The position numbers and the translations under genes were made by a program. From IMG/VR virus record IMGVR_UViG_3300028706_000033, positions 1 to 25,586 of that record: a stretch of DNA of 25,586 bases; one strand, given 5' to 3'. Below, one piece after another: positions 6,001 to 23,061 of the stretch. The notes under the pieces were generated by a model. The model saw nothing but the letters and a program-made list of their open reading frames with translations, searched no databases and had not been told where the DNA came from. Position 1 is the first letter of the stretch. Every line of letters begins with the position of its first letter. The stretch is from a virus.

Positions 6001-6987
6001 GGAAACAAGATTGCTGTAACTAGTGTTGAAGTCGATGCACTAGATTTGCCTATCGGACAATTCCAACCATTCGGCGCCGACAGCAAAATACTGTGGTGTT
6101 TGATTTACATGCTTAAAGAAGATCCGGTTTATAAATTATTGATGAGATATATCTTTCCGATTCCTAAAATATTAAGTACTTTAGCGATTTATAATGACAT
6201 GGGTTTCTTGTCAGCAATTGGCGAAGTAACTGTAGGAAACGGCGACTACAATCAATTCACCCCCGTTACCTCGGGAGAAGCCAAGGGCGTAATGGGGTTC
6301 TTTTTGAAGGCAATTCTTCGCGATGGATCCAAATGGAAAGAATGGATTCCGTTTATTCATGGGACCGCTGACGAAGCAACCTATGGAGTTGTTCCACCCG
6401 ACGGCGTTGGAAAAGCAATCGATGGTAAACGCCCGGGCAAAGAAACGTCCACGTGGGACACAGACTCATATTCCGGCGGCGAAGGCCGTTCATGGGGCGC
6501 CCGATCTAAACCCGGAAGAAACGCATTTATTGACTTCGGAGAAAGAGAAGAAAAATATTACCCCAACAACTCAGGCGGCTCTAAATTCATGGACTTTTTG
6601 TTTGGTAGTGATGATCCTATTGAGATGACTGTCAGATGGGTTAGAGACTATGATATGAGTGGAAACGAAGGCTGGCAACATTATGATGACAGACAGCCCG
6701 GATTCTTTAATTTTGATGCGATGTTTGTTACTGAGTGGGATAGTTGGGATAGAAAACTATTGAGAAATTCTAACAGCCGAATTAAACAACAATTTAAAAG
6801 CTATTATTACTCCCGCGACTTTAAACCTGGAGATTCTGGTGATGATTCACCTGGATCTGTATTTATTAAAAACTTGCGAGGCGCCCTCCTCCCAGTGCCC
6901 GGTGGTGGTATGCTCCCATGGTGGCAGCGCGGCCGCTTGAGAAGCAGTCCATATAATGCAGATGGTAAGTTATGTTCCAAAAAATAA
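1..6987 (+). CDS. Giant phage structural protein, 5'-partial, function unknown
   Basis: The frame is open from base 1, and the first ATG (base 16) has no Shine-Dalgarno sequence in front of it, so the true start probably lies left of the window. Residues here are counted from that ATG, giving 2323 residues to the TAA. I do not recognise a named family. A helical part near residues 546-595 is rich in Met, Ala, Ile and Trp, and a second hydrophobic stretch lies near 1215-1243. A histidine cluster lies at 1829-1851: H1829-G-H1831, then H1846 and H1851. Gly/Asp/Trp/Tyr-rich beta-like sequence makes up most of the second half. The gene sits directly before the gp25-like gene, the place of the spike gene V in P2, but I see no spike or lysozyme signature. 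The long coiled coil expected of a tape measure is also missing. A virion or baseplate-associated structural role is inferred from context. The reading frame itself is certain. Confidence 0.85.
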   Translation, partial: LWLYSMYLKVYRQLGEGNIFFVGENPAPGDLNTIDQAQAAGTESLEGTFYSNQDGPQGALGRIFNLEDYGDPAVFTSSTMSDLMDTLESFMNARGLNIPGVGGIFSFWLDDITKMKFFFDDYKLIKLHVWTAECGANRPIRFSKKRLASLNAKGAWKDKTAVAYFTKLWPMEASISARIPLPWVEFVEKFTYPTVKANFKDEDVEKRETPLSCVADALADDLKELGSDLLDDFFGIGDAIAMKFNQNICRFNLDEVRDDNTQMGLILDPNANEKGNIFAMAQTAAYKKINQDDQIFVRMCAQMLSNATGFQDAQKAMDKMYAEGFERIKQCGMFDMLMQAIECLLGGLDLEGALNAIVKAALDNMSIENFGELFVGLPPHKQDELDAIVKKKMESGEFVSLGEANKPWEKPDVINDERTNGMTNGPGMAAGGSSTASYNQAAGRAQSQTQRTLGKEWDIQAAQTDAAPDTMFSLYVGALLEVYSNNLLELMDELNKFPGAQLVAHMIIAMDCPRPPLFNPSFMDFIKSIQLPFCQNITDMRAPRLENPFKWIPKLRNIMAALWEAIKWAVSQAIMAMLMKIFIKVCEMLGDAICKALETAGDIAKSLPAIVQGTTTFADVIQESLCGPTSSPEQVEDTIVDMMSSLGVGGAAFSSRDGLMKFTEDLSASATRKEMAEWFLGRPPKAFLQVVDQLLEFEYPEFRNALPNERALGRLGKNIGNLMPLDFRDSLEDLLNSLPEGDAMPANPTLCASPEQLENFANLRCQLLEGRATKEQCDVMYDEMRNGFVQDLGDISNLMQGGLESYMSPGGPGGMPVLVSEPGCDDGLFPYESAAQIAVAGHSSKMAMESLRISYAKDMMGNGGFLTGDGSWGLMNMAMSDTMGNPLTAHHRKAKNNKSYVNFATNVANGGEASSGFFSLFQSNAGFSAQEGQFPTYVGEWLMRQFQNASVYTKWFEEGSSTNAESWNKAPRNAYQHQSTAPADGGTDLRGHFKFNSHNGYRNDKKKSIKWSDLDFNMFWGQGVDLLTLPDFGYNSPMTVDFVNEKVIVNKRARKGRQGSEGKSTESGLSYITLDGDMSLVYHDNAAGMRDGCGLGSNIGLKSGAYPGGDGIMGMAGSQWSYGFNVELYMSDIAEIQEPKFRKKKAGENIEGKLVDKDGMIFVGLKDTGIIANRFEDACRVKITELINVNSSVESPLAENAMEDFEKGELIDLPNWIENIPLLGDLLQAGLNLITGPFSMLFRAASMMGRSATATVSVKKNRRFEFTGIDDGLSGFEMATTGPATNKKTQKVLKWKDFPKTEKFFNSHQSSYYIPQVQMLKELIHGAGSTANDADKDNYDSKMQQLLELFAGLIARNEQAWQYGAKYDTLQKSDLDYLIPKNSGYTNGGSGNADGHAYEAASVVREKLFDFYGNPAGHEWRTPENDDMILGVSRDQYMNGENARVIYLNPAQFGGSYINPPLHIKPVKYEGWMGLVNVWFPEMSACKPAMTELIDFGEISDKVNTRYPKIPEDPRLKQDEDCAFELPYNRILSRTAKAGLQRTIEAAVRIYASTHFLKAIPTFSLVTPKFPENYSSVYSAYIVEQMEEGFKDAQPAFWEYFSTFKDEEFWYAFLEMSVQYYGYLLDSEEIVDPPDSVVRAIQRLNNGQETYDFPWGMDLRRAKATGDAGTLESLSSFRGNKNLEFVRATEEDAKLVLKELVSMQLEEMGNKLNENLEVAGFKTKIWDLDWWMLMGQYDTDTTGGRVATGLEIGSGLTAGGENLHVFSPKIVEYADDLPMPPGRLGSGDAEYVDSETGNSWPGPFYTRGGTYVIGKKNDSESEAEVGDSYVGYYHGHVDDSNDVTYMAGEYHSDSPHDELVPMGDILRMGTRVPLTTRKESGTFNKDGSAAARDEDTGGPNDFHTVIDGGNVMGFGDVADYGAASPGSQHMYAIEKYVSVNGQKMTYDAAKTLVQANDNAAVLSEFYPGTMETVKNAAGKIMGIKGQLGVRLGIEFSYVDNGNKIAVTSVEVDALDLPIGQFQPFGADSKILWCLIYMLKEDPVYKLLMRYIFPIPKILSTLAIYNDMGFLSAIGEVTVGNGDYNQFTPVTSGEAKGVMGFFLKAILRDGSKWKEWIPFIHGTADEATYGVVPPDGVGKAIDGKRPGKETSTWDTDSYSGGEGRSWGARSKPGRNAFIDFGEREEKYYPNNSGGSKFMDFLFGSDDPIEMTVRWVRDYDMSGNEGWQHYDDRQPGFFNFDAMFVTEWDSWDRKLLRNSNSRIKQQFKSYYYSRDFKPGDSGDDSPGSVFIKNLRGALLPVPGGGMLPWWQRGRLRSSPYNADGKLCSKK

Positions 6988-7018: not shown

Positions 7019-7387
7019 ATGTCTTCTTTTAGTGTAGCCCTTCCCTTACGTAGAGATTCAAACGACGGGTTTGTAATGAATAAAAAATTTACTACCCTGG
7101 TCAGACAGAATCTTAAGATGCTTATCTTGACAGTACCTGGAGAAAGAATAATGGATCCCGAGTTTGGTGTAGGGCTTAAAACATACCTATTTCAGAATTT
7201 CCACGAAGGCACTTTAGCTGAAATAGACGCGAAAGTTCGTGAGCAAGTCGCTAAATATTTACCGGTAGTATCTATAATAGGGCTATCATTCGATCAATCT
7301 CGTATCGACACAAATCAACTTGGTATCGCAATTAAATTTACAATACCAAATATAGGTGCTACTGATTTACTACAAATCACTATTTAA
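7019..7387 (+). CDS. Baseplate wedge / sheath initiator protein, gp25-like (P2 gpW, TssE superfamily)
   Basis: This 122-residue protein matches the size and pattern of the GPW_gp25 family. The family signature is clear at residues 40-50: P-G-E-R-I-M-D-P-E-F-G, followed by a V-G-L-x-x-Y-L-F-Q-N stretch and a C-terminal beta hairpin ending in hydrophobic residues. In T4, P2, R-type pyocins and type VI secretion, members of this family sit in the baseplate wedge and template the first sheath ring on the baseplate. The start has a good Shine-Dalgarno sequence. The gene lies 15 bases ahead of the gp6-like gene, the same W-J neighbourhood as in P2. Its presence shows that the tail is contractile. 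Function is assigned from family knowledge and is well supported by both motif and neighbour. Confidence 0.93.
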   Translation: MSSFSVALPLRRDSNDGFVMNKKFTTLVRQNLKMLILTVPGERIMDPEFGVGLKTYLFQNFHEGTLAEIDAKVREQVAKYLPVVSIIGLSFDQSRIDTNQLGIAIKFTIPNIGATDLLQITI

Positions 7388-7390
7388 AAT

Positions 7391-7395
7391 GAGGG
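7391..7395 (+). promoter_or_regulatory. Shine-Dalgarno site for the gp6-like gene
   Basis: GAGGG lies seven bases before the ATG at 7403, within the 15-base gap after the gp25-like stop codon. It fixes the start of the downstream wedge gene and points to translation from the same message. Confidence 0.75.
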
Positions 7396-7402
7396 TTTTT
7401 TA

Positions 7403-9199
7403 ATGCCAGATAATCAAAAAAAGATAGTTCCTATAAACTATACTAACCGAGAATTCGAATCGATTCGTTCGGATTTATTACAAATCGCAGAGCGGTTTTA
7501 CCCCGATTCCTTTCAAGATTTTAGTGAGGCATCCTTTGGTGCATTGATGGTGGACGCGGTTGCATATGTTGGAGACCAACTTTCTTTTTACTTAGATTAC
7601 AATGTAAACGAATCTTTTTTAGATACCGCCTACCAATACAATAATGTGGTAAGACACGGTAGAATTATGGGCTACAAATATACCGGCCGCCCCTCCACTT
7701 TCGGAACAGTAGCTCTATACGTCATGGTGCCTGCTTCCGCTATCGCTCTCGGACCAGACCGTGCATACATCCCAACTATGAAGAAGGGAAGCCGCTTTAC
7801 CTCAGAAACAGGACTAAGCTATGTACTAACTGAAAATGTTGATTTTGCTAATAGTAAAAATCCAATAGTTATTGGTAGAACTGATCAAACTACTGGAGCC
7901 CCAACACATTTTGCGATTAAATCCTACGGAACGGTAGTGTCGGGATATTTCGGAAGTGATACATTAAATGTTGGCGCTTATGAGAAATTCAAGCGCATGC
8001 GGTTGACAGCCCCCAACATATCTGAAATCATTTCAGTCTATGACTCAGATGGAAACGAATACTACGAAGTTGATTATTTAGCACAAGATATGGTTTATAA
8101 GGAGATGGGGAATTCTAACTTTAAAAATGATAATGTCCCCTCTATTTTAAAGCCATATTTGGTATCACGGAAATTTATTGTTCAACATGAGAGGAACAAT
8201 GTATTCCTGCAATTTGGAAGCGGAAAAAGTGGGGAAACTAATATTGTAGCCGATCCACAGACTGTAGCAATGGACGTTTTTGGGAAAGACTACGTTGTTG
8301 ATACAACTTTTGATCCAACGAGATTGTCAAAAAATGAAAACTTTGGTATTGTGCCTAGCCAGACCACATTGACTGTTAATTATCGAGCCACAAACCCGGC
8401 TAATTCAAATTTAGCCACAGGGATGCTAAGTGAGGTTGTTGATGCTAAACTAGACTTTGGAGACGTTCAGCTATTAACAACTGCAAAGATGGCCGCAGTA
8501 TATGAATCGGTTGAGGTGTCGAATGAGATTCCAATATCAGGAGATGTTGATACTCCAGATACTAATGAGCTTAAGCTAAGAATATTTGATACTTTCCCAA
8601 CACAGAACAGGGCAGTAACCCAAGCTGACTACGAAAACGTCGCCTATAGAATGCCTGGGAAATTTGGTTCTATTAAGAGGTGCTCAATCCAGCGCGACCC
8701 CAGTTCAGCAAAAAGAAATCTAAATATGTATATCATATCAGAGGGACCATTTGGAAAATTGATACAAAGTAACTCTACAATTAAAAAGAATTTAAAAACG
8801 TGGCTCAACCAATATAGAATGATTAACGATACAATTGATATATTAGATCCATATATCATTAATCTGGGCATCGAGTTTGTAGTTAAGGCTGAATCAGGTG
8901 CTAACAAATACGATATCTTACAAAGAGCTGTTCACTCCCTACAAGACAAATACAAAACATGCTATTATATCGGGGAGCCAATCTACATAAGTGATGTCTA
9001 TAGCGAACTAAAAAAGGTCAGCGGTATCCTTGATGTATTGAAAGTGAAATTAGTCAATAAGACGGGGACGAATTATTCTAGCGTGACAATTGATATTAAT
9101 GCAAATCTTTCGCCAGACGGAGGCTACCTAGTTGTACCTAAAAACGCTATTGTGGAAGTAAAATATCCCCAGACTGATATCGTAGGTCGGGTGAGATAA
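7403..9199 (+). CDS. Baseplate wedge protein, gp6/gpJ-like
   Basis: This is a 598-residue protein, close to T4 gp6 (about 660). The N-terminus carries the typical opening: a Y-T-N-R-E-F-x-S-I-R-S-D-L segment, then A-L-M-V-D-A-V-A-Y-V-G-D-Q-L-S-F-Y and a helix with N-V-N-E-S-F-L. The C-terminal part has R403-A-V-T-x-x-D-Y, found in the gpJ/gp6 group, then W467-L-N-Q-Y-R-M and a segment ending in Y-I-I-N-L-G. In T4 two gp6 copies per wedge clamp gp7 and form the inner iris ring of the baseplate, which opens on sheath contraction. TssF (type VI secretion) and P2 gpJ do the same job. The gene overlaps the next gene by one base (TAATG), so the two are probably translationally coupled. The assignment is firm at family level. 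The exact contact partners here are inferred. Confidence 0.93.
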   Translation: MPDNQKKIVPINYTNREFESIRSDLLQIAERFYPDSFQDFSEASFGALMVDAVAYVGDQLSFYLDYNVNESFLDTAYQYNNVVRHGRIMGYKYTGRPSTFGTVALYVMVPASAIALGPDRAYIPTMKKGSRFTSETGLSYVLTENVDFANSKNPIVIGRTDQTTGAPTHFAIKSYGTVVSGYFGSDTLNVGAYEKFKRMRLTAPNISEIISVYDSDGNEYYEVDYLAQDMVYKEMGNSNFKNDNVPSILKPYLVSRKFIVQHERNNVFLQFGSGKSGETNIVADPQTVAMDVFGKDYVVDTTFDPTRLSKNENFGIVPSQTTLTVNYRATNPANSNLATGMLSEVVDAKLDFGDVQLLTTAKMAAVYESVEVSNEIPISGDVDTPDTNELKLRIFDTFPTQNRAVTQADYENVAYRMPGKFGSIKRCSIQRDPSSAKRNLNMYIISEGPFGKLIQSNSTIKKNLKTWLNQYRMINDTIDILDPYIINLGIEFVVKAESGANKYDILQRAVHSLQDKYKTCYYIGEPIYISDVYSELKKVSGILDVLKVKLVNKTGTNYSSVTIDINANLSPDGGYLVVPKNAIVEVKYPQTDIVGRVR

Positions 9200-10911
9200 T
9201 GAGTATTCGTCGCTACACTGCAAGCGCAGACACTACAATTGTCAACGCATTCAAAGCCGATTTAACAACTCGTGGCACTGGCTCAAATATGGGTCGAGCC
9301 GATGTTATGGAAGTATTTTCCATTTACGGCCGCCAGCAGCCGAGCAGTTCAGCCCTTTTCAAGGGCGGAGCCTCCCAGGAATTGTCGCGATTGTTAGTAC
9401 AGTTTCCAGTGTCGAGCATCGCCTCCGATAGAAACGCTAGCAAAATTCCAGCATCCGGTAGTATAAGCTTTTATCTTAAATTATATAACGCGAAAACTTC
9501 TAAAACTGTACCAAGAGATTATAAACTTGTAGTACTACCTGTCTCTCAATCCTGGCAAGAAGGAAACGGACTTGATTTAGAAAACTATCGTGATGAAACC
9601 AAAGGAAAAATGGGAGCTAACTGGTTAAATGCCGGTTCTAGTTCTACTGGGGTTTCTACATGGAAAAATATTGCCGGCGCTGCATCAATCGGGGGTTCTT
9701 ACAAAACGGGATCCTGGCAGGGCTCTGGGGTGACTGCAACCATGAAACAATTTATTTATACACAAACGTTTGGTGGTGGACTAGAAGATTTAGAAATTGA
9801 TATTACTGGACTAGTGGAAGAATGGATCGCTGCAGAGACAGGTAGTGCCACCGCTGGAATCGATAATTATGGTGTAGGGGTTCATCTCTCGTCGAGCTAC
9901 GAGGCTTATTTTTCTACAGCCGATGGGAATGATGCATCGCCAACGCCTGGGGGCTCACCACCGTACGCTTCTCTCTCGGCATCATCTTTACAGAACACCG
10001 ATGGCGCCCTAACTTCATATTATACCAAACGATTTTTTGCAAGAGGTACCCAATACTACTTTAAGAAACCCACTATCGAAGCTCGTTGGAACTCTATTAA
10101 ACGAGATGACCGAGCAAACTTCTATTACAGTAGCTCTCTCGCGCCAAGCGGTCAAAACCTAAACACACTTTATTTATACAACTATGTACGCGGCCGCCTG
10201 GTTGATATTCCCGGACTCACAGACAATAAGCTGCTTGTAAGCTTTTATTCTGGCTCATCAGATAACTCCGACGCCACTGGCTCCGCAATACTTCTCTACT
10301 ACCCTGGTGCCGGCTCAGGGGGCAAGTATGCAGTCACGGCTAGCAGAGCGGCCACGGGCATTTATTCGTGTTCTGTGGCGATTACAGCAGCCAATACGCC
10401 TCTTCAGACTATCTTTGATGTCTGGCATGATGGCAAAAACACCCCCGCTCTGGGATCAACCCAGTTTGTTACAGCGTCGTTTCGTCCAAATACTTTTGGT
10501 GGACAAACAAACACACGCGAACCAATTTATTATTGCAATATTACAAACTTGCAAAACTCTTACTTACCAACACAGAACGCGAGATTTAACTTGTATATTC
10601 GCGAAAAGAACTGGAACCCAACGATTTATACCAAAGCGAATTCTGATCCAGCGACTACATCGATCGCAAGTGCATCCTACCGCGTTTATCGTGTGATGGA
10701 CAGCTATAATGCTGTGCCATATTACACAGGTTCTGAATATGCGACAGGATTATCCTACGATGTGTCCGGAAATTATTTTGATTTTGACATGACCCTGCTC
10801 GACCCGGGATATGCATACGCATTTAAGTTTGCATTTTATGATCCAGAGCTTAAAAGCTGGCAAGAGCAGGATCAGACCTTTAAGTTTAGAGTAGAGAACT
10901 ATGAGTATTAA
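9199..10911 (+). CDS. Beta-rich baseplate-region protein with a DNRLRE/CBM96-like N-terminal half
   Basis: A 570-residue protein of unassigned role. Residues about 8-297 follow the layout of DNRLRE-type beta-sandwich domains. A-D-T-T-I comes near residue 10, G-S-N-M-G-R-A next, and L62-S-R-L-L-V-Q-F69 resembles the domain's central strand. A W-Q-E-G segment follows, then D197-L-E-I-D-I-T-G-L-V-E-E-W209, like the D-I-T-x-L-V-x-x-W core, and a closing strand P-T-I-E-A-R-W. The remaining 270 residues are Tyr/Ser/Asn-rich and strand-like, probably two more beta sandwiches. DNRLRE domains usually occur in secreted or surface carbohydrate-associated proteins. The gene starts inside the gp6-like stop (TAATG) with only a weak ribosome site and ends 11 bases inside the next gene, so coupling is likely. 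It sits between J-like and I-like genes. A wedge-attached receptor-binding or decoration part is inferred, not shown. Confidence 0.85.
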   Translation: MSIRRYTASADTTIVNAFKADLTTRGTGSNMGRADVMEVFSIYGRQQPSSSALFKGGASQELSRLLVQFPVSSIASDRNASKIPASGSISFYLKLYNAKTSKTVPRDYKLVVLPVSQSWQEGNGLDLENYRDETKGKMGANWLNAGSSSTGVSTWKNIAGAASIGGSYKTGSWQGSGVTATMKQFIYTQTFGGGLEDLEIDITGLVEEWIAAETGSATAGIDNYGVGVHLSSSYEAYFSTADGNDASPTPGGSPPYASLSASSLQNTDGALTSYYTKRFFARGTQYYFKKPTIEARWNSIKRDDRANFYYSSSLAPSGQNLNTLYLYNYVRGRLVDIPGLTDNKLLVSFYSGSSDNSDATGSAILLYYPGAGSGGKYAVTASRAATGIYSCSVAITAANTPLQTIFDVWHDGKNTPALGSTQFVTASFRPNTFGGQTNTREPIYYCNITNLQNSYLPTQNARFNLYIREKNWNPTIYTKANSDPATTSIASASYRVYRVMDSYNAVPYYTGSEYATGLSYDVSGNYFDFDMTLLDPGYAYAFKFAFYDPELKSWQEQDQTFKFRVENYEY

Positions 10912-13900
10912 GAAGCTTTTTGATTCCACCGAGAAATCAAGAAACTATCTGACAGAAAAAAATTCTAAGGATGCCTTTGAAGAAGTAGAATCTTCTAGAA
11001 ATCTAGAACAACTTCGGATAAAGCAGGAACATTTTCAGCCGCAGATAGATTATAATAACCCTGAACAATTCGCAAGATTTGGTTCGGCTATTCTATATTA
11101 TAAGTCTGCCTTTACTCGCATCCTGGATTATTATCCTTATGATGGCTCGGCCACCGAAGTAAATAAGTTTACTAATGACAGTCTCGATATTGAGAATTAT
11201 ATTCTTGATAATCTTTATCCTCGCACAAACGGTTACGCAAGAATAAACTATGTCAATACAACACCAGATAATATTCTGGATGGGTATGGATACTACGCCA
11301 CAGACAGAGAGTTCATAAAGTTTTATGGTGGACCAGGCACAGGAAGTGTCACGAGTACTGCTCTTAAAGATCTATCAATAAATAAGTACAACGATCAGAT
11401 CAATAACGCCAATGTCTATGATACAAATTTATACAAAAATGATGGACTTCCATCAGACTATGGAAAGGGTACTCGCCAGTCTAATTTAAGATCAAATTTT
11501 GATGACGGAGTTACAATTGAATTCTGGTTAGACCAAGATTCCAATATTAGTGCAGATCCTTACGGTACCTGGGGCCAGAAAAAAGTTGTCTTTGACATGT
11601 GGAATGGTGCTCCCTCTGCAAGTGCTGATTACGGACGAATTACACTTGCGCTTGAAGCTGCAAGCACTAGTATAACAGCAGACAGGTTCTTTACTCTCAC
11701 CTGTCAATCGGGTACAACTCCCTGGGTTGACGGCGCCACGAACCAAACTGCGTCTGGATTCTTTGAAACCACTATCTCAGATAACTTTACAACAGCTGAG
11801 TTTCAAAAGTGGAACCACTACGCGGTTACAATTCAGAATTCTGGAAGTAGCCTCGTTGCTAAATTCTTTGTAACTGGTGGAATCCAAAAAGAAACAACAC
11901 TTAAAACTGGGATCGCCACCGGGCTAGGAGAGATCAACCCAAAACCGTCAAACCAAGTTGATGGCTCTACTTGGAAAGCGGGACTTCGAGCGCATATAGG
12001 TGCTCTTATAACGGCGCCGTCATCGTCTGCGTTGACGAGTCCGGAAAACTTAGTCGGTGCAGGTAGACTTAGTGGGTCTATCGACGAATTCCGCTTCTGG
12101 AAAACAACGAGATCCTCGCGCGAGATTGGAACAAACTATTTCACCCAAATTAAGGGCGGCACCAACACAGACATTTCAAACACCACTTTGGGTGTTTACT
12201 ATAAATTCAATGAAGGTATTACCGGCAATTCAAGCGTTGATAAATCTGTCTTAGATTACGCTGGCCGCGTAACAAATGGTGTGTGGACTGGATATACGGC
12301 AGGTGCTAGAAACGTTGGCTCTGCTATTGTTTCTGCTTCAGCAGCCACCAAAGAATTTAAAGACCCGATTATCCGTCCAAACCACCCGGATATTATATCC
12401 TTAAGAAAATCGCTAGTAGACAAAGGGCAATACCACGACCTAAACAACAACTCGTCAATGCTAAGTTTACTACCCGGCTGGATTGTAGATGATGAAGAAG
12501 TTGGAGTCGACTCAGATTTACAGAACATGTGTCACATTGTCGGCGCGTACTTTGATAAACTATACCTACAAATCTCACAGATATCACGATTAAAGAACCT
12601 TACTTATACAAGCGCTTCACACAAGCCCTTTCCGTTCGCAGAACATTTGCCACAGTCTTTGGGGCTTTACTCTCCTGAATTGTTTGTAGACGCCTCTGTG
12701 ATGGAGAAATTCATTAATAGAGACGATACTACACTGTTTGAAGGTGATCTACACGACACCAAGAATTTAATCTACAGCAATCTCTATAATAACCTTACAG
12801 CAATTTATAAGTCAAAGGGTACTGAAAAAGCCATTAAAAACATCTTTAGATGTTTCAATATTGACGAAAAACTTCTGAGACTAACAATCAATAGTAATAG
12901 AGAAGAATTTACTTTACATAACAACGTCCAACAAACCCTTATTCATAAAAACTGTGCTAATTTTAATACATCTTCAAACACCAACGCAGTCATCTACCAA
13001 TATTCTAGCTCCGTAGCTGCTTACGGCCCATCGCAGGGCTATATTACGGGAGCCGTAAACCTCTTAAAATATGGATTCACTGCAGAAGCTAATATTGTTT
13101 TCCCACACTTTGATATGGTAAACAATACTACGGGCAGAGACTTCATTAGTTCATCTTTGTTTGGTGCTGCCACAGTACTTTCCAGTGTCAAATCGGGAAA
13201 AAACCTCACTGGCGAAGATACTACATTTGCTAATAATTTTGCTGGCATCTCAAACGCAGACGTCGCTAACTTCCAAGTCACCGCCGTTAGGACAAAGCCA
13301 TACTCTAAGGACGCTTACTTTGTATTGGAATCGAAATACGCTGGAGCCTCCGGCGCCAAGCCTTTCCCAATATTGACAAGCTCAACGTTCCTAAACGTTT
13401 ATGATAACGAAGAGTGGAATATTTCAGTTCGACTGAAGCCGAGCGTAAATACGTCTACCGCCTTTGTTGAAGGAACCGGCAGTTATACTTATGATGTAGA
13501 ATTCTACGGCGTTAACACAATAAACGATACTGTCGCTAACACGTTCAAAGTAAGCTCTTCAATCTCCCAAGCAGTTGGTCAGAAGATGCTGTATTCAGGC
13601 AAAAGACTTTATGTTGGCGCATTGCGCACTAACCTTACGGGAGCGATTGTCAACAAATCAGATGTGTTGATTCCTTCTGTTAAATATTGGACAAAATATC
13701 TTGAAGATTCTACCTTAAAAGTACATGCTTTGGATGTGGAGAACATTGGAATTTCTGGTTCCATGTTCCCGCTTTCGCCGCTTGATACAGGTACCCCAGA
13801 CGCACAAATTCTTAATTCGGACACCCTGGCGCTAAACTGGAATTTCTTAAATGTTACTGGCGCCGATGGTACAGGCAATTTCTTGGTGCAAGACTTTAGC

Positions 13901-16900
13901 TCTGGCTCATATATGCCTGTATTATATGACCCCGCTGCTCCCGGTACCCCGCGGCCGCGCGGCGGCTACAGCTGGATGGACAAAATTACCAAGAAACTAC
14001 ACGCTGGTTTTGGTTACGGCTTCCAAGCTTCTTCTGCGAATGCTATAGACAAACGCTCTATGAACTCATACCGGTTCATAAACCCAGAGCATGTAGTGTC
14101 GTCGGATATGATTACCATCTTCGATGACGAAGATAGGATGTACCCGCCCACTGAATTCGTTCCAAATTATGTTTATACAATCGAGAAGAGCCTTTACAAC
14201 GCAATTTCTGAAGAAATGTTGGACTTCTTTGCTGGCGTAGTGGACTTTAATACAGTCATCGGCGCACCAGTAAACAGATACCGAGATCGCTATAAATCAC
14301 TAGAAGCTTTGCGTAGAACGTTCTTTAGAAGAGTTAACAAAGTCAAACAGGTTGAGAAATATCTCAATTATTATAAATGGTTTGATGACGCGATAACCTC
14401 TATTATAGGACAAGTTGTTCCTGTTTCTGCTGAATTTGTTGATGACATTTTGAATGTGGTTGAGCCACATGTGCTAGAGAGGCCAAAATATCAAAGTCGC
14501 TTTCCTACACTCAACTTCGTAGACCCAGACGTCCAGGGCGCCCTAACTGGTCTTGACCCTCTGACATACTCTGCTCGCTTGGGACGCTCAACACTAGCAG
14601 CATCACCGCGGCCAACGAACAAACATGAGCTTTATTGGAAAGCTCGCGCCGAACGCAGTGCACCCGAGATTACGTCAGGCGACAGCACCATTGACACCCA
14701 GCGCGAAACTATACGAAAAACTGTAGTAGGAAGCCCAAGGCTTGCACAAGCAACAACGATCGTCTCATCCTCAACCGCAGGGCAATACCAAACAAGACGA
14801 TATGCCCAGCGCGCATTCAATAGACTATATAAAATAGAAGCTTATTCTTCAGAAGGGCAAACAATATCCTCATCAACATTCCAGGGGGGTGTTAATTTTT
14901 CTCCACAGAAAAACTTAGATTTTGCTAGATCGGCAGTATGGCCCGCAGGACCTATAAACACTGAGGGTGGGGTTTTCGTCCCTCAAAACGTTTTATTTGC
15001 AGATCCAGAAGACTATGTAAAAACTCCTGACTTTATTAATGTTGATGAGCCGGCAAATCTTATAAAGAAAATCCATCGCGTCTACAAGGTACAACATGGT
15101 CGAGACTGGGAGTTGGGGCAAGGCTATAAAAACCTTAAGTCAACAGTAGCTTTCCCATTCAGTATAATGAGTTCTTCAGCACGCGGCGGTTACATCGAGC
15201 AGATTAGAACGAGAGTTAGTGCAAACTTAGATATAACTAATATCCACAACGATGTTTACGGACCCTCTAAGGAGAAACCTTTGCAGGGACCATTCACAGA
15301 GTACGCAGTAGGCGGTTTACAGTCACGACATATAGCAGTTAACTTTAAAGCAACTGACACATGGCATACCCGCCCAGAACAATTTAACATTCTATTGGGT
15401 TCATGTATAGGTCCTCCCGGCGCCATTGGCGTCGTTGGCCCAGATTATCCATGGCCAGAAGCCAATAACGAGGGCGATGCTCCCTATCCAATGACCGGCT
15501 CAAAGAAAGCCTATCTTTACCGCGATTTTATTGCCAAACGTCCCGTCAACATCAGAAACATTTTGATGCGCACTGGCTCCACAATACTTGGAAACTATAC
15601 TCAAGAATATGAAGTTCTGCACTCATTTGGTACATATGCAAACCCACGGCACTTCATTGATAATCAGCCTGATTTGCCTGACAATGCCTTTACTGGCTCC
15701 ACCCGATACGCAACCCAAATGCGAACATACCTGGACGTTAGAAGGACAGCTGAGGGGCACCAGCAGCTTCTCCCTGACTATTCAGTAGGGTACCTTACCG
15801 GAACACAGAACCAACAAATAATCACAACCAGATTCTCTAATCCAGGAAGTGTACAAACTATGGGTGTCGGCTATAGGGATATTAGAGGAAATGAATATTC
15901 TGTTTATAATACAGTTGGCTATAGAAACTTAGGATTCTCACGCACCTCACAGATGCCAAGCGGCACTATTTCAGAAGCAACTGGGGCAGCTACGCCTGGT
16001 ATCCGCTTGTTTGACCTTCATGGAAAAGATATTGGAGAGTACGCCCACCGCGCCCGCCACTCCGCACGCTTCGGGAGGGATTCAGTAACAAACAGTGACA
16101 TCACCCCAGTATCAGGAACGCCTGCTGCATACGGACTCACCGGCGCCATGTCTCCCTTATTTACACGTGGGCCCATAGAATATGGGCTGTCTGGATACTC
16201 TTATTCTGGTGCACCCGTTACAAAATTGCAAGCATGGTGGAGGCTCAACACAAATATCTCTTCGGCTGGGAATGCAACTGATTCAAGCGGAAACGGCCGC
16301 CACGGAACATTTGCCGCCGCCGCCAACAGACCTGCGTTTTCAACTACACGATATCCTTCAACTTACGTTCAAACCGGAAGCTGCACATTTGATGCAACTG
16401 ACGACGCGACGAATATCCTTTCAGCTGCGACTTGGGATGCACTCATTGGAAACGATACCGGCGGTGGTTCTACTCAAAAAATGACATTTGCGACATGGGT
16501 ATATCCCGAGGGCCCCGGAGAGAATAACTTTGGGCGTATCCTTGATTTTGGCGCACAAGATATTGCACTTTTTACTAATTCAACGATGCAAATAGTATTT
16601 TCTGCGAGGTGGAGTGCAGGCAGCGTGTATGCTAAGAGTGTTGCTTTACTTCCTCTAGACGAGTGGTCACACGTTGCAGTCACATACGATGCTAACGATA
16701 TAGGTAATGATCCAGTCTTGTATCTTAATGGACTAAGGATCCCCGCGACTCGTACTGGCGCCACCTCTGGAACCTATTCCGGCATTGCCACAGAAGACTG
16801 TTTCATTGGCAACAACTCCACCGGCGCTAGAACTTGGGACGGCAGCTTGGCAGATATTGCGGTTTGGAATGAGACCCTTACCGAAGGTGCAATACGGGCG

Positions 16901-19900
16901 ATATATCACGTAGGTAAATATGGTTTAATAGAATCTAACGTTAGTGGGCCCGGGGCAACCTATACGCAAGATCCTGCAAGATATAAGATACAAAGAAACA
17001 TTAAGAAAAGACTCCAAATATTAGCCGACGGCACGTACGGAACAGCCAGTCGCTACGACAATTATAACGTCCAACACCAGATTCCTCAGTCCGATATTCA
17101 ATATAATTGGATCGCTCGTTCTGTAACAGATCCTAACAGTATAAACTACTTTAATTATCAAAAAACATATGGCGGAGACCGTGAGTTCCGAAAACTAACC
17201 GCCACCACTTATGAGCCTTTCTACTCATTTGTTTCTGCGAGCGACGAAAAAGGAACCGCGGCACTTGCCGGCGGATTCCAACCAGTCGGCCGCCTGAACA
17301 CTCTTACGCTTGATGCAGTAAGTGGTACTGAGAATACCATAGGATTCCCAGACTCCGCCACCGCCGCAGAAGTTTATTTGAATGCAGCCTTCAACGACAC
17401 TACCAACATCCCTAGCGCGTCTTATCTTAACCTTCTGCTTTCTCGGCGCGAGGCAACCTATGGCTGGACGTGGCGTATGTGGCGCGCCGGCTTTAATAGC
17501 CCTGTCTTGATTGAGGAGATGAAAAATAACCAGTTGTCAGCAGTAACTGGTGGAGTTCAAGGGTTTTATAACTTTAGCTTACCACCGGTATCAATGAAAG
17601 GCCGGACTTCACGTATCAACTACGATGCCGGCTACTCTAACAAATTTCAAGCTGCAGCCGGAAAAAGAAATAATATAACCCTCCGAACAGCACACACTAA
17701 TGATAAGATTTTCTTCAACGAACGCGTTCTAAACAATCTAGCATCTCCAAACCCAAATAGCGTATACACACCGCTGTATAGTGCAATTGACATGACGTCA
17801 AATGCCGGCTTCCGGCCAAACTGGATTATCTATTCCCAAAACGTCTTCCCATCCATGCGCAACGAGTTCACTTCACGATCTGCTGGTCGAATTGGATATG
17901 ATAATAAATTCTGGCGCAACTCAAATACAGATCGAGTTATTTTAGATGCCGCAGCCCGAAATGGTGCAGGCACCCCCAACTCTTTTGGAGTTGGGCTAGG
18001 CCGAGTCCGATCATCACCAGCCGGCGGGTTCCCCCCATCTCAAAGTGTGTGGCCGTTAGATGCACCAGAACACTTCCTCACGCGCACAGAACCATATCGC
18101 TTTGAAAAATCTGGTTCAGGGTTCCACTTGTCAGGTCCACGGGGACATGGTAAAGCCGGCGAACTTCAGAACACTTTTAGTCAATATATTTATGCTGACC
18201 AAACCTCTTCTACCGGCGGCAGCAACCCAGATCGTTATCGATACTCTCCCAATGACCCCGACCACCAATATTATCCTCGTTGGGCGAATATTACACTGTC
18301 CCCCCTGTATTCCAGAAAGCACATCCTAGGTTCTCCACGATCTGTAGTGGCACCTTCCGGCTTAGACATCCCAGAGACTGGAACTCTACCTATTGGGCCG
18401 GCCGCCGGCAAGATGGGCTCCAAGCTTCACACATCCGGCGCTTTTGGAATCAATGAGTTTAGGTTCCTCAGTTCATCTGATCCTTTCTCCGGCGAAGCGT
18501 TATGGGAGGCACCAACCGGCGCTGGAATTATTTTAAACTCCGGCTCAGTCCCAAATTATATTATATCTGCTTCAAATCCGTGGTGGAATAATTATGATGC
18601 ATTCCACGCCGACTTAAAATTAGCAGCTAGAGGATATTCAACAGTACCCGAATTTAGGATTAGCGATCATGTTGAAGACTATATGAGATTTGGCGCTTTA
18701 AATCCGGGAACTGTAGACACATTCAATATTCCGGGAACCAGCATTAATAGCACCTCCGCTTCATTCTACAAAGATTATTCAAATTCAGATTTCTTACAAG
18801 ACTTTGTGAATATTAAAAACAAGTCTATGCTAGATTTAACACAAATTAAACTTACGGTTGAAGCCGCCATCAGGTTTAATCCATATAAGGGATTCTACCC
18901 AGCACAGAGAACGCTGGACATGGTTTCACAATTTTCTCGCTCATATGGCCCCGGCATATTTGCCACCCCGATTATTACCAAGGGCAACGGCAACCTAGAC
19001 ACAAATTATAAGGATGGTATTACCGGAAGCACAAACGCATACCAATGGCTTGGCAGTGCTTTCCGCCCCGTCATCGCACCTCTATTCGCCCCAGGCATTC
19101 TTTACAATTCTATAAAATCTGGACTTGCAGTTGATTACCCAGTTGTTACAGATCCTGAAAGAATGGTACGCCAACCGTTTGGTGGCGCTCATACTAATTA
19201 CGAAGCTGAAGGTCCGAGCAAAGGCTACTCCCCAGATAATTGGGCCCTGACAACAAATACAGGGCAACATAATGATACTACTGGCAGATTTAAAGGCTCA
19301 TATTTTGATCACCGTATACCTTTTGAAGCTATTATTGAACCCGCGCCGTTTATCAGAGATAAGTATCTCCTTGATATGGAGCCTCACCCATCGTGTTCAT
19401 TGGCTGCCACAGCCTCGTGGGCTGGGAACACGGACGGAACCTACACTAAGATGTCCGCAAACTTTTTTGGAGAAGTCGGCAACTTCTTCTTAAGAGACCG
19501 AGATTACACTAACCTTGAATCAAACGTCGTACCACCGGATATCAAGTTCAGCGAAGGCGAAGTCTTTGGCGCACGTATTGTATTGAGGCGCTCAATGCGC
19601 GGCGCCCGAACATATGGTAATGATTCAGGTTCTACGGGTAATCATGCAGCTTTCTCTAATTTAGGTGGAAAAACATTTATTGCAGACGACCCAAGCACAT
19701 CTTTTGCAGTTGGAACATTAGACAACTTTGGGGCTTATCAAGAAAGCTCATATGCTATTCCTCAAGATCCGAAAAGAAGCCCAGACTACCGAGAAAACTT
19801 TACAATGTACAGCAGACCCACAGCATTTGGTCCACCTCTTTCAGGTCGTTTTTGGGCTTCATCCGCAGCTGCTAATACCGGCTCACTAGGGCTTTCTGGT

Positions 19901-21445
19901 TCGGTGGACTGTTTCGATGGCTATAATTGGGCGTATACCCCTCCTTATTACCACGGCGAAGCGTGGGCAGATTTGGTTTTCAGACCAAGTGCTTCTATCA
20001 GTTATGATTTAGAGAAGATTCTTTCCGAAACAAAAGTCTATTATTGGCGCGCCGACGCCGGCGCCCCCAGCGGCTCATCTAACACAGCTTATTATACTAG
20101 TTTAATTCCAGGTGGGCCTTCTTCACTGCATGGACCCAGCCAGGGCCCCGGTGAGCCATACGCAGGAGACCACGTTAATCTAAATGCTATGCAGCTAAGC
20201 GCTAGTTTCAACTTGTTTGGTATAGAGCGAGTATTTAAAACTCAAGTTGGCGCCGGCGGCGCCCAAACCAACGAAATAGTGGGCGCAAAATGGATTATTC
20301 AGCCAAAATTTGAAACACCAATGTTTGACTTTGGAGATGTAGGTTTACATCCAATTACTAGTGGTTCGGGTAACTTAACTATACCGCTCTACGGATCATC
20401 TTCGGTACCACGCGGCATGTGGCATCAATTTGGAAAAACCCCGCCCGGGCCAGATAGAGGAATTTTCCTATCAATCGGGGAAATTCCTTCCGACTGGCTT
20501 AACAATCACTGGGCTGTAATTAACTCTTCAAGTATATATAACAATTATACTGTCCCATCCGGCAAAGAAAGATTTTCGCAAGGGAATAAATATAAGTCAC
20601 TAGCTAAGCTTTTCGGCTTCGATCGAAACAACAGCAGTGTTAGAATGGGAGAAGTGGCAGAGTCTCGCACTATCAGAGAAGCTGTAGTCGCGATACCTTA
20701 TGTAATAGAGCAACCTGAGGTACCAGACTCAGCGGCATCAACTTCAGAAACTTTAACAGCACAAAAGAAGTTTATTGGAATTAAGCAAACACTTTTAACT
20801 CGTGATTCTGAAGGCTTACGCGCCTCAACAAAGGCCGGCAAATCTGTTGGAGACATGTTATCAAAAATGAAGAAATATGTTTTACCTCCCCAATTTGATT
20901 TTATTAGCAACCCTCAGTTAAATCCGATGGCAATGTATATTTTTGAATTTGAATATACATTTGATAAAGACGATTTATCCTATATGTGGCAGAACCTTGC
21001 ACCACGAGACTACCAGAAAATGAGTTTTCAAAAAAGTGCTGTAGCTCATGAGTTGTTCGATACTGAAATACTGGATGACAACGCCCTCTTATCAAATAAT
21101 AATTTGAGATGGATGGTCTTCAAGGTAAAACAAAGAAGCCAAGTAGAATATTGGGACCTTATAGCTGATCAAGCTAGAGAAGCGTCAACACAGATTTTTG
21201 GAAAATTGAAAAAGCAGCCAGAAGGTTATGATGTCGCGTACAACTGGCCTTACGACTTCCTGTCTTTTGTTGAAGCTATTAAGGTTGACGTGGACGTAAT
21301 GTATAAAAATCCATCAAACCCACACATAAAACAAAATTCTGAATCTGGGCAAAAGGCTTCAAAAAAGCTAGCTGATGCAAAGGCTCAGAAAAAGCTACAG
21401 GAAATACCCGCAAAGAAAAAGACGAATAGAGGAAATAATAACTGA
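10901..21445 (+). CDS. Giant tail/baseplate protein with LamG-like domains and a gpI/gp7-like segment
   Basis: A 3514-residue protein, among the largest expected in a phage. Order of parts: N-terminal anchor 1-130, with Y-Y-P-Y-D-G and Y-P-R-T-N-G-Y-A motifs; LamG-like domain about 195-445 (D202-G-V-T-I-E-F-W209, W304-N-H-Y-A-V, G392-S-I-D-E-F-R-F-W400); helical gpI/gp7-like segment 520-670 (L-L-P-G-W near 525, Y636-K-S-K-G-T641); probable further LamG-like fold about 720-950; helical part 1040-1215; second clear LamG domain 1776-2010 (D1920-E-W-S-H-V-A-V, G1981-S-L-A-D-I-A-V-W). A long Gly/Ser/Tyr/Pro-rich part follows, then a C-terminal module with V3327-L-P-P-Q-F-D-F and a Lys-rich tail from about 3485. 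LamG domains bind sugars or proteins, so host-surface contact is the likely job. The gpI-like part suggests it is built into the wedge. The start overlaps the previous gene by 11 bases. Domain bounds are approximate; role is inference. Confidence 0.88.
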   Translation: MSIKKLFDSTEKSRNYLTEKNSKDAFEEVESSRNLEQLRIKQEHFQPQIDYNNPEQFARFGSAILYYKSAFTRILDYYPYDGSATEVNKFTNDSLDIENYILDNLYPRTNGYARINYVNTTPDNILDGYGYYATDREFIKFYGGPGTGSVTSTALKDLSINKYNDQINNANVYDTNLYKNDGLPSDYGKGTRQSNLRSNFDDGVTIEFWLDQDSNISADPYGTWGQKKVVFDMWNGAPSASADYGRITLALEAASTSITADRFFTLTCQSGTTPWVDGATNQTASGFFETTISDNFTTAEFQKWNHYAVTIQNSGSSLVAKFFVTGGIQKETTLKTGIATGLGEINPKPSNQVDGSTWKAGLRAHIGALITAPSSSALTSPENLVGAGRLSGSIDEFRFWKTTRSSREIGTNYFTQIKGGTNTDISNTTLGVYYKFNEGITGNSSVDKSVLDYAGRVTNGVWTGYTAGARNVGSAIVSASAATKEFKDPIIRPNHPDIISLRKSLVDKGQYHDLNNNSSMLSLLPGWIVDDEEVGVDSDLQNMCHIVGAYFDKLYLQISQISRLKNLTYTSASHKPFPFAEHLPQSLGLYSPELFVDASVMEKFINRDDTTLFEGDLHDTKNLIYSNLYNNLTAIYKSKGTEKAIKNIFRCFNIDEKLLRLTINSNREEFTLHNNVQQTLIHKNCANFNTSSNTNAVIYQYSSSVAAYGPSQGYITGAVNLLKYGFTAEANIVFPHFDMVNNTTGRDFISSSLFGAATVLSSVKSGKNLTGEDTTFANNFAGISNADVANFQVTAVRTKPYSKDAYFVLESKYAGASGAKPFPILTSSTFLNVYDNEEWNISVRLKPSVNTSTAFVEGTGSYTYDVEFYGVNTINDTVANTFKVSSSISQAVGQKMLYSGKRLYVGALRTNLTGAIVNKSDVLIPSVKYWTKYLEDSTLKVHALDVENIGISGSMFPLSPLDTGTPDAQILNSDTLALNWNFLNVTGADGTGNFLVQDFSSGSYMPVLYDPAAPGTPRPRGGYSWMDKITKKLHAGFGYGFQASSANAIDKRSMNSYRFINPEHVVSSDMITIFDDEDRMYPPTEFVPNYVYTIEKSLYNAISEEMLDFFAGVVDFNTVIGAPVNRYRDRYKSLEALRRTFFRRVNKVKQVEKYLNYYKWFDDAITSIIGQVVPVSAEFVDDILNVVEPHVLERPKYQSRFPTLNFVDPDVQGALTGLDPLTYSARLGRSTLAASPRPTNKHELYWKARAERSAPEITSGDSTIDTQRETIRKTVVGSPRLAQATTIVSSSTAGQYQTRRYAQRAFNRLYKIEAYSSEGQTISSSTFQGGVNFSPQKNLDFARSAVWPAGPINTEGGVFVPQNVLFADPEDYVKTPDFINVDEPANLIKKIHRVYKVQHGRDWELGQGYKNLKSTVAFPFSIMSSSARGGYIEQIRTRVSANLDITNIHNDVYGPSKEKPLQGPFTEYAVGGLQSRHIAVNFKATDTWHTRPEQFNILLGSCIGPPGAIGVVGPDYPWPEANNEGDAPYPMTGSKKAYLYRDFIAKRPVNIRNILMRTGSTILGNYTQEYEVLHSFGTYANPRHFIDNQPDLPDNAFTGSTRYATQMRTYLDVRRTAEGHQQLLPDYSVGYLTGTQNQQIITTRFSNPGSVQTMGVGYRDIRGNEYSVYNTVGYRNLGFSRTSQMPSGTISEATGAATPGIRLFDLHGKDIGEYAHRARHSARFGRDSVTNSDITPVSGTPAAYGLTGAMSPLFTRGPIEYGLSGYSYSGAPVTKLQAWWRLNTNISSAGNATDSSGNGRHGTFAAAANRPAFSTTRYPSTYVQTGSCTFDATDDATNILSAATWDALIGNDTGGGSTQKMTFATWVYPEGPGENNFGRILDFGAQDIALFTNSTMQIVFSARWSAGSVYAKSVALLPLDEWSHVAVTYDANDIGNDPVLYLNGLRIPATRTGATSGTYSGIATEDCFIGNNSTGARTWDGSLADIAVWNETLTEGAIRAIYHVGKYGLIESNVSGPGATYTQDPARYKIQRNIKKRLQILADGTYGTASRYDNYNVQHQIPQSDIQYNWIARSVTDPNSINYFNYQKTYGGDREFRKLTATTYEPFYSFVSASDEKGTAALAGGFQPVGRLNTLTLDAVSGTENTIGFPDSATAAEVYLNAAFNDTTNIPSASYLNLLLSRREATYGWTWRMWRAGFNSPVLIEEMKNNQLSAVTGGVQGFYNFSLPPVSMKGRTSRINYDAGYSNKFQAAAGKRNNITLRTAHTNDKIFFNERVLNNLASPNPNSVYTPLYSAIDMTSNAGFRPNWIIYSQNVFPSMRNEFTSRSAGRIGYDNKFWRNSNTDRVILDAAARNGAGTPNSFGVGLGRVRSSPAGGFPPSQSVWPLDAPEHFLTRTEPYRFEKSGSGFHLSGPRGHGKAGELQNTFSQYIYADQTSSTGGSNPDRYRYSPNDPDHQYYPRWANITLSPLYSRKHILGSPRSVVAPSGLDIPETGTLPIGPAAGKMGSKLHTSGAFGINEFRFLSSSDPFSGEALWEAPTGAGIILNSGSVPNYIISASNPWWNNYDAFHADLKLAARGYSTVPEFRISDHVEDYMRFGALNPGTVDTFNIPGTSINSTSASFYKDYSNSDFLQDFVNIKNKSMLDLTQIKLTVEAAIRFNPYKGFYPAQRTLDMVSQFSRSYGPGIFATPIITKGNGNLDTNYKDGITGSTNAYQWLGSAFRPVIAPLFAPGILYNSIKSGLAVDYPVVTDPERMVRQPFGGAHTNYEAEGPSKGYSPDNWALTTNTGQHNDTTGRFKGSYFDHRIPFEAIIEPAPFIRDKYLLDMEPHPSCSLAATASWAGNTDGTYTKMSANFFGEVGNFFLRDRDYTNLESNVVPPDIKFSEGEVFGARIVLRRSMRGARTYGNDSGSTGNHAAFSNLGGKTFIADDPSTSFAVGTLDNFGAYQESSYAIPQDPKRSPDYRENFTMYSRPTAFGPPLSGRFWASSAAANTGSLGLSGSVDCFDGYNWAYTPPYYHGEAWADLVFRPSASISYDLEKILSETKVYYWRADAGAPSGSSNTAYYTSLIPGGPSSLHGPSQGPGEPYAGDHVNLNAMQLSASFNLFGIERVFKTQVGAGGAQTNEIVGAKWIIQPKFETPMFDFGDVGLHPITSGSGNLTIPLYGSSSVPRGMWHQFGKTPPGPDRGIFLSIGEIPSDWLNNHWAVINSSSIYNNYTVPSGKERFSQGNKYKSLAKLFGFDRNNSSVRMGEVAESRTIREAVVAIPYVIEQPEVPDSAASTSETLTAQKKFIGIKQTLLTRDSEGLRASTKAGKSVGDMLSKMKKYVLPPQFDFISNPQLNPMAMYIFEFEYTFDKDDLSYMWQNLAPRDYQKMSFQKSAVAHELFDTEILDDNALLSNNNLRWMVFKVKQRSQVEYWDLIADQAREASTQIFGKLKKQPEGYDVAYNWPYDFLSFVEAIKVDVDVMYKNPSNPHIKQNSESGQKASKKLADAKAQKKLQEIPAKKKTNRGNNN
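21428..21433 (+). promoter_or_regulatory. Shine-Dalgarno site for the 538-residue gene
   Basis: AGAGGA lies inside the last codons of the giant gene, 11 bases before the ATG at 21445, a little further than usual. The stop and start share bases as TGATG, so re-initiation by terminating ribosomes probably helps. Confidence 0.55.
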
Positions 21446-23061
21446 TGGCTAAATTCATAGACAAAAAAGAACAAGTTTTTGATTTTCAGTTAACGCCATA
21501 TGGTAAATACACCTTATCTACAGGCGCCTTTAAACCAGTTTATTATACACTATACGATGGAGAAGTACTGTACGATAGTCAATATGCTGGACTGACCGGC
21601 AGTGGTGTTCAAGAGCAACAGAATAATATCCACACGAGAATCAAAGAAAACACAGCTTATATCGAAAGCCTTGTGTGTTTTGACGAATTAGAAACGTCTC
21701 CGCCCAATAAGAGCGAGTTAATTCGCAAAGATATGGGAGATCTCCGCGGCGAACTGAACGATCTAGTAACAGATCCCCTTTCAGGATTTGACGCCGAAGA
21801 AATCATCGATATTCTCGAAATTGCTGAATCAACGTTGTCTGGTGATGGCACTACACTTAATTATTTTCCCACCGACATTGAAGTCCGCCACGAGGTGCCA
21901 AGAAAAGATATCTATCGATTTGGTCAGCCAATCGGAAACGCACGGTTTTCCGGACCGTCACAACAGAGTGCGCCGGCATGGAAATACGCATCACTACAGG
22001 GACACATCTCTTCTTCAACAAGGATTAATTTAAACCACGAAGAAGAAAGGATTCCCCAACTCAACACAAAATTAGTATATAAAAAATTAATCCATGAGCC
22101 TCCAAAAGGGGTAAACCCAATCACAGTTGCAGAAACCATAGCATCCACACCAGTATTTCCAGACGGGCATGTTATATCTTTAGTTAAGGATGACCTTTTA
22201 GGATATATTGAAGAGGTTAACACAGAGCTTTTAACTGAAAATTTTGATATTGAAGTATTCCAAGTAGAAACGGTCCCCGCTGTCCCGGCAGTAGGTAAAA
22301 TATTCCTCAGTGTCTCAACAAACCAGCGGTTCACAGAAACTATTACAATAAATGATGGATGGACCGCGATGGAAGGGTCGGAGGATGCACCAATATGGAG
22401 AAACAGCAGGGAGGTTACCTTCGAATTCTCGTCAGATGGCACCGCCGCCGACGCAGATTATGTCGTGGTAACTATTGGTTCAACCACTCAAGAGACAGCA
22501 GAAAACTTAGTAGCAGCAATAGAATCCAGTCGCGCTAGTGGTTTACTAGATGTCGTGCCAACGTTTGATATAGAGGCCAGAGATGTAGATGACAGCTATT
22601 ATGTAATTATGCTTCAAAATAAAATAGTCCAACGGCCATGGCAATGGACCAACTGGGAAATAACCGAAACAATGACACATGGATTTACGTCCGGCTTTGA
22701 GAGCGGCTCAATTGAACTCGAAACGTTAAACAAGAAATACTTTGAACGCACCAATCCACAAGTTGTTGATGGTATGATGATGTACCCCGAGGCACCTGAC
22801 ACACACATGTTTGGGAATAATGATCCTTTAAACTTAACTTCCGCTAGTGTAGAATATTACTTTGACGTACTTACTGATACTCAAGTGGACCAGAAGGCAG
22901 CATGCCGCGGCTCCGAACTATTTAATAAAGATTCATACTATATTGATCTAGACTTTGAATGTGACCCGACAAAAGCTTGCGAGGACGATGAAGAAGTATT
23001 TTATGATATCTACGGCCGCGCGGTTGAAGAACCAGAGATATGTGAACCAGATGATGAATAG
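21445..23061 (+). CDS. Phage structural protein of unknown function with inserted beta domain and acidic tail
   Basis: A 538-residue protein. The first 50 residues, opening M-A-K-F-I-D-K-K-E-Q-V-F-D-F and holding P-Y-G-K-Y and Y-D-S-Q-Y-A-G, look like a compact conserved head that I have seen in uncharacterised marine phage proteins (memory, not a search). Residues about 290-390 differ in style. T-I-T-I-N-D-G-W, then T-F-E-F-S-S-D-G, then T-A-E-N-L-V-A-A-I-E looks like one unit of the beta repeats found in large adhesins, as if inserted into the host protein. The last 30 residues are strongly acidic with three Cys, ending D-D-E. The start is fixed by the TGATG overlap with the giant gene. Position and coupling suggest a partner of the giant protein in the tail. 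No enzymatic motif is visible. Function is unknown. Confidence 0.85.
   Translation: MAKFIDKKEQVFDFQLTPYGKYTLSTGAFKPVYYTLYDGEVLYDSQYAGLTGSGVQEQQNNIHTRIKENTAYIESLVCFDELETSPPNKSELIRKDMGDLRGELNDLVTDPLSGFDAEEIIDILEIAESTLSGDGTTLNYFPTDIEVRHEVPRKDIYRFGQPIGNARFSGPSQQSAPAWKYASLQGHISSSTRINLNHEEERIPQLNTKLVYKKLIHEPPKGVNPITVAETIASTPVFPDGHVISLVKDDLLGYIEEVNTELLTENFDIEVFQVETVPAVPAVGKIFLSVSTNQRFTETITINDGWTAMEGSEDAPIWRNSREVTFEFSSDGTAADADYVVVTIGSTTQETAENLVAAIESSRASGLLDVVPTFDIEARDVDDSYYVIMLQNKIVQRPWQWTNWEITETMTHGFTSGFESGSIELETLNKKYFERTNPQVVDGMMMYPEAPDTHMFGNNDPLNLTSASVEYYFDVLTDTQVDQKAACRGSELFNKDSYYIDLDFECDPTKACEDDEEVFYDIYGRAVEEPEICEPDDE

Follow-up and report, generated by a model that had tools for sequence, protein, structure and literature searches.

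The window, meaning the whole 25,586-base virus record analysed here, has no family assignment and carries its large genes all on the plus strand. Four plus-strand open reading frames at 7019-7387, 7403-9199, 9199-10911 and 10901-21445, with short overlaps, encode proteins of 122, 598, 570 and 3514 amino acids, respectively. The first is a gp25/gpW-like sheath-initiating wedge protein (PHROG_261, E 5.9e-19; PF04965, GPW_gp25, E 8e-12). The second is a gp6/gpJ-like wedge protein (PHROG_6 'baseplate wedge subunit', E 1.4e-21; PHROG_219, E 5e-16) with a weak Baseplate_J match and with tblastn matches in Microcystis phage Mel-JY01 (E 6e-81) and to the 'baseplate wedge protein' of Flavobacterium phage immuto (E 3e-71). 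Coordinates and family matches agree with the preliminary description of this DNA, which had read adjacent gp25-like and gp6-like genes followed by a beta-rich 570-residue protein and then the giant one. The same description called the arrangement a P2-like W-J-I order. The adjacency stands and the specificity to P2 does not, as W-J-I order is general among contractile tails and in length the 598-residue protein comes nearer T4 gp6 than P2 gpJ.

The genes to either side are shared as well. Positions 1-6987 hold a 2328-residue reading frame, open at its 5' end and without a PHROG or Pfam match, which many relatives also keep upstream of gp25. Positions 21445-23061, after the giant gene, encode a 538-residue protein starting MAKFIDKKEQVFDFQLTPYGKYTLSTG, kept in 17 of the 17 relatives examined and without a confident family.

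At least 510 matching stretches of this aquatic clade are present in IMG/VR. Using the gp25-like protein as scan query, 80 loci were collected, and the order gp25, gp6, 570-residue-type gene, giant gene is found in every one of these with enough downstream sequence. Cultured phages have equivalent clusters with shorter proteins and an extra small gene, gp25-gp6-386-413-1336 aa in Mel-JY01 and gp25-gp6-369-112-1265 aa in immuto. The extra gene of the cultured relatives, absent from the window, lies between the CBM96-like and gp7-like genes (L082:23020-24261, 413 aa; L083:22910-23248, 112 aa); the 413-residue protein aligns with residues 3393-3430 at the giant's C-terminus at E 0.21 only. A further occurrence is at L247:8500-13621, in the chromosome-level metagenome-assembled chromosome of candidate division WOR-3 bin77 (CP070664.1). 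There the end of a 570-residue-type gene and a 1559-residue giant piece lie among genes on both strands, gp25 and gp6 were not detected, and the locus is either a phage remnant or a binning or assembly join.

Since the order is kept in relatives including cultured phages, the 570-residue gene between the J and I positions is an old and conserved baseplate part. It had previously been described as an extra gene splitting the order; the gene is present, and the arrangement is an old one, conserved in all sufficiently long relatives. HHalign identifies orthologs of this beta-rich protein (9199-10911, plus strand) in Mel-JY01 WWT39509 (386 aa, E 7.5e-16) and immuto gp111 (369 aa, E 1.8e-10). The 570-residue protein itself (P0003) has no PHROG or Pfam family and no CBM96 match. 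Its CBM96/DNRLRE-like character is taken from WWT39509, which matches CBM96 at E 5.5e-5 with 23.5 bits, 2.5 bits short of the cut-off of 26. It is probably the giant's constant partner in the peripheral baseplate.

The 3514-residue protein (10901-21445, plus strand), a candidate third wedge subunit, has a single Pfam match, Laminin_G_3 (PF13385, E 1.8e-18), at residues 1857-1998. A first LamG/ConA-like domain at about residues 200-440 (11498-12220) is assigned from relative L065, residues 170-339 of which match Laminin_G_3 at E 2.3e-9; the window's own copy has no Pfam match at that place. A gpI-like core block follows at residues 490-700 (12368-13000) and contains LLPGW (residues 523-527, 12467-12481) and YKSKGT (residues 636-641, 12806-12823), the two features placed near residue 525 and at 636-641 by the preliminary description; KGT is invariant across 43 diverse relatives. 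ConA-like domain 2, at about residues 695-1060 (12983-14080), separates this block from the second core block, which is conserved and helical, at residues 1085-1215 (14153-14545, VPVSAEF...VEPHVLER). The C-terminal region, about residues 1260-3470 (14678-21310), is conserved through the clade according to the conservation profile, and holds the third LamG domain (16469-16894) as a lineage-variable insertion. All of these features are on the plus strand.

By sequence comparison, residues 490-700 show firm homology to the 1265-1336-residue proteins at the same place in cultured phages. The first block aligns by HHalign with the immuto-type at E 5.5e-18 and with the Mel-type at E 1.8e-13, the second at E 3.7e-8 and 2.5e-9, respectively. 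Over column shuffles the immuto-type alignments have z values of 42 (first block) and 20 (second block), and BLAST of the giant's core against the cultured-phage proteins gives E 1e-6. The blocks are separated by a median of 366 residues in the window family, compared with 316 in the Mel-type and 130 in the immuto-type, which points to the ConA-like domain as an insertion that some lineages do without. A BFVD search returned uncharacterized marine-phage proteins (34-38% identity), LamG proteins and nothing else; close relatives of the giant are already public, filed under the former name.

Structure prediction was informative mainly for the insert. In the AlphaFold model of the window protein, high confidence is confined to the ConA-like domain (pLDDT mostly 80-95 over about residues 680-1000), and the helical core has low confidence. 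Foldseek of its residues 400-1230 against the PDB gave mainly ConA-like lectins, lyases and toxin binding domains, and ConA-like domain 2 matched pea lectin (E 4e-4), ulvan lyase (E 6e-4) and PL7 alginate lyase (E 1.5e-3). Being of lectin and lyase type, the matches of the window model probe the insert and not the core. For the insert-free immuto-type core, AlphaFold predicts two long N-terminal helices at the expected place (pLDDT 59-87) in a low-confidence model (pTM 0.27), with which Foldseek found no PDB match and no wedge protein. A profile search of PDB sequences with the core found neither gpI nor gp7, nor anything else relevant. The core may be stable only together with gp6, which would account for the weak models.

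The link between core and gpI comes from sequence models. The 43 diverse core segments of the family alignment were each scanned against Pfam and NCBIfam-type libraries, including TIGR02242. Tail_P2_I (PF09684) was matched by 11 segments and TIGR02242 by 16, the next family in either scan by two. A profile match of this segment had been proposed beforehand as a check; it is present and weak, the best scores being 13.6 bits for Tail_P2_I (cut-off 20.6) and 16.4 bits for TIGR02242 (cut-off 51.85), both below the curated cut-offs. In record G017, two collinear TIGR02242 stretches (model positions 2-39 and 68-99) coincide with the regions of LLPGW and KGT. An HMM built from nine P2-type gpI proteins reached at least 5 bits in 17 of the 43 real core segments, in none of 43 reversed and none of 860 shuffled ones; including A511 in the model changed these numbers to 25, none and one. 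These controls, together with the 16 members against two for TIGR02242, gauge specificity. Across 78 tiles from six window proteins, the gpI HMM exceeded 2 bits in just two, both containing KGT. It scored 5.4 bits on the window core, 4.9 on the gpI-like N-terminus of the 1309-residue A511 protein and -1.7 on T4 gp7. The A511 protein also fails Tail_P2_I (E 0.5), so that a curated cut-off evidently misses divergent members.

Direct HHalign to gpI was marginal, at E 0.0053 for the window family (one of 60 shuffles was equally good) and 9e-4 for the Mel-type. The giant's gpI match centres on the KGT helix, and T4 gp7 carries a comparable YSTKGIEASYKFLF; HHalign of the core against gp7 reached no significance, with the KG(T/I) helix alignable by eye. 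The idea that the second block corresponds to the gpI C-terminal domain was dropped (HHalign against gpI, E 0.14). The weak matches come from related sequences and are not mutually independent. Taken as sequence similarity, the core's resemblance to gpI is weak but specific.

The window's record is a 25.6 kb fragment, and gene uniqueness is a statement about its long relatives. Six-frame searches with TIGR02242 over 32 phage records of up to 203 kb, and with PF09684 over 20 records, found matches solely within the giant or its counterpart. Thus a separate gpI/gp7 gene, named beforehand as one of two findings that would count against the proposal, was not seen in the long relatives. The T4-type gp7 domain (Pfam Gp7_5th) is absent from 17 long relatives, and the core is present as one copy in 16 of 17 long records.

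Given the gpI models, the gene position and the lack of another candidate, a third wedge subunit very probably lies inside the giant, as the preliminary description had suggested; the models bearing on the structural half of that suggestion have low confidence in the core. It is likely that the giant as such, with the layout given above, serves a contractile-tailed aquatic phage as its third baseplate wedge subunit, of P2 gpI/T4 gp7 type. A less likely reading, though one to be kept in mind, makes the giant a protein of the baseplate periphery or a fibre anchor whose only resemblance to gpI is in one KGT helix, the true third subunit being another, unrecognised gene or unneeded. This would suit a protein that is mostly beta-rich and lectin-like, has no fold-level gpI or gp7 match and aligns mainly over that helix, but it leaves unexplained why two independent gpI models pick the core segment, why the two stretches of G017 are collinear, and why the giant follows gp6 in long records that offer no other candidate.

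The 570-residue protein could instead be the third wedge subunit, with the giant as an accessory layer like A511 gp106/VrlC, which seems improbable. Its gene comes straight after gp6, the position that gpI has relative to gpJ in P2 and the third wedge gene relative to the J-like gene in A511. Pelagimyophages lack T4 gp7 and have VrlC (PMC7029224). Against this, no helical core or KGT motif is found on reading the 570-residue protein, its Mel-JY01 ortholog resembles CBM96, and the start of A511 gp106 is unlike the giant by eye. A reading of the same start led to the identification of the giant as VrlC being set aside.

Of 17 independent contigs that extend downstream, 15 carry the giant's homolog as a single reading frame of 2822-5171 aa, with no stop, and the remaining two have a pair of genes, L065 (1234 + 1790 aa) and L063 (1819 + 1536 aa). 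The two relatives in which a gene pair takes the place of the window's single gene might hint at an assembly artefact joining two genes, but the 15 uninterrupted contigs refute this for the clade and leave it next to no probability. The longest homolog, 5171 aa, is in L105 (the record of L075, IMGVR_UViG_3300030430_004105). At the L065 junction there is a stop, a GAGG-type ribosome site and a new ATG. The first gene there stops just past the second core block, meaning that the wedge part is able to exist as a separate chain, and the C-terminal region is encoded by the separate 1790-residue gene in L065/L103. Both split lineages nest among fused relatives in the tree, with modest support (0.57-0.89), which suggests two separate fissions, in L063 and L065, of an older fused gene. 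The same nesting makes a recent gene fusion less likely.

The sequence shows a core of residues about 490-700 and 1085-1215 that the 1265-1336-residue proteins of cultured phages share. The ConA-like domain interrupts it, an N-terminal segment and a LamG-like domain come before it, and some 2,200 conserved residues are fused after it. With the giant taken as third wedge subunit, and by analogy with T4, XM1 and eCIS structures, this core would join two gp6-like chains into a (gp6)2-gp7 wedge beside the gp25-like sheath initiator. The lectin-like domains and C-terminal region would face outward and form the peripheral baseplate, and this periphery would hold the fibres and possibly touch cell-surface glycans.

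The lectin-like domains differ in how widely they are kept. The conservation profile shows clade-wide conservation of the first LamG-like domain, of the ConA-like insert and of the greater part of the C-terminal 2,200 or so residues, which fits structural roles. The region 1741-1980 is found in only about 10-20% of relatives, and the LamG domain at 1857-1998 is the sole variable insert among the three. The preliminary description had the wedge subunit absorbing sugar-binding domains and thereby merging baseplate core and receptor binding in one chain. Lectin-like folds are indeed present, by the LamG match and the ConA-like model, two of the three being clade-conserved; the merger as stated is only partly supported, the C-terminal 2,200 residues being mostly conserved and not hypervariable. 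A bolder proposal has a single chain combining the wedge core, a lectin domain embedded between the core's two halves and the entire peripheral baseplate. Contact of the embedded domain with glycans could then move the core directly and trigger contraction without separate trigger subunits like T4 gp8-gp11. This proposal is speculative and probably incorrect.

The gp7-like subunit is the presumed site at which contractile machines are re-engineered for different fibres (PMC8894135). In the present clade the third wedge subunit would have grown to 2,800-5,200 residues, with its core enclosing a lectin-like domain, and would have been split again at different points in two lineages. The fused and split series is a natural one for asking which wedge parts cannot be dispensed with and whether lectins carried on the wedge make contact with hosts. 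The third wedge gene may also now be annotated in many phage genomes that list it as 'uncharacterized'.

Among known systems, P2 gpI has about 180 residues. Together with XM1 gp17 it shares with the giant the place after gp25- and J/gp6-like genes, the LLP...KGT order and the helical KGT segment. These proteins (176-242 aa) have no added domains, whereas the giant is some 20 times larger and has its core interrupted by the ConA-like domain. T4 gp7 resembles the giant as a large third wedge subunit that has extra beta domains and whose KG(T/I) core lies well away from the N-terminus; it differs in its 1032 residues and in giving no significant direct profile match. XM1 gp17 and T4 gp7 have been termed orthologs (PMC10457771), and the relation of gp7 to gpI-type proteins is structure-based (PMC10457771, PMC6300606). 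LiPA511_gp035 of A511 (1309 aa, after the J-like gene; phmmer E 7e-117 to TmpF of PDB 9euf) has a gpI-like N-terminus with KRGTIPAI and appended F5/8 type C and Ig-like domains; unlike in the giant, its gpI-like part is N-terminal and uninterrupted, and its carbohydrate-binding folds are others.

From the literature, Vp4 Gp119 is a Herelleviridae third wedge protein with carbohydrate-binding modules that decorates host cells (PMC11406892); it likewise joins a wedge protein to carbohydrate-binding folds but has 831 residues, belongs to Herelleviridae and uses other folds. Afp12, Pvc12 and Alg12 of extracellular contractile injection systems (eCIS), also compared via the literature, are wedge proteins enlarged by fusion, and their fibre-holding gp7-like part has been described as a "hotspot" of re-engineering in evolution (PMC8894135); in them the gp7-like part is fused to the gp6-like part and not to lectin domains. 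Mel-JY01 WWT39511 (1336 aa) and immuto gp109 (1265 aa) have a homologous core at the same place; the 2,200-residue C-terminal region was not detected in either, and the immuto-type is also without the ConA-sized insert. With T4 gp7, A511, Vp4 Gp119 and the eCIS proteins as precedents, the giant would represent a new and extreme extension of a known trend rather than a new type of machine.
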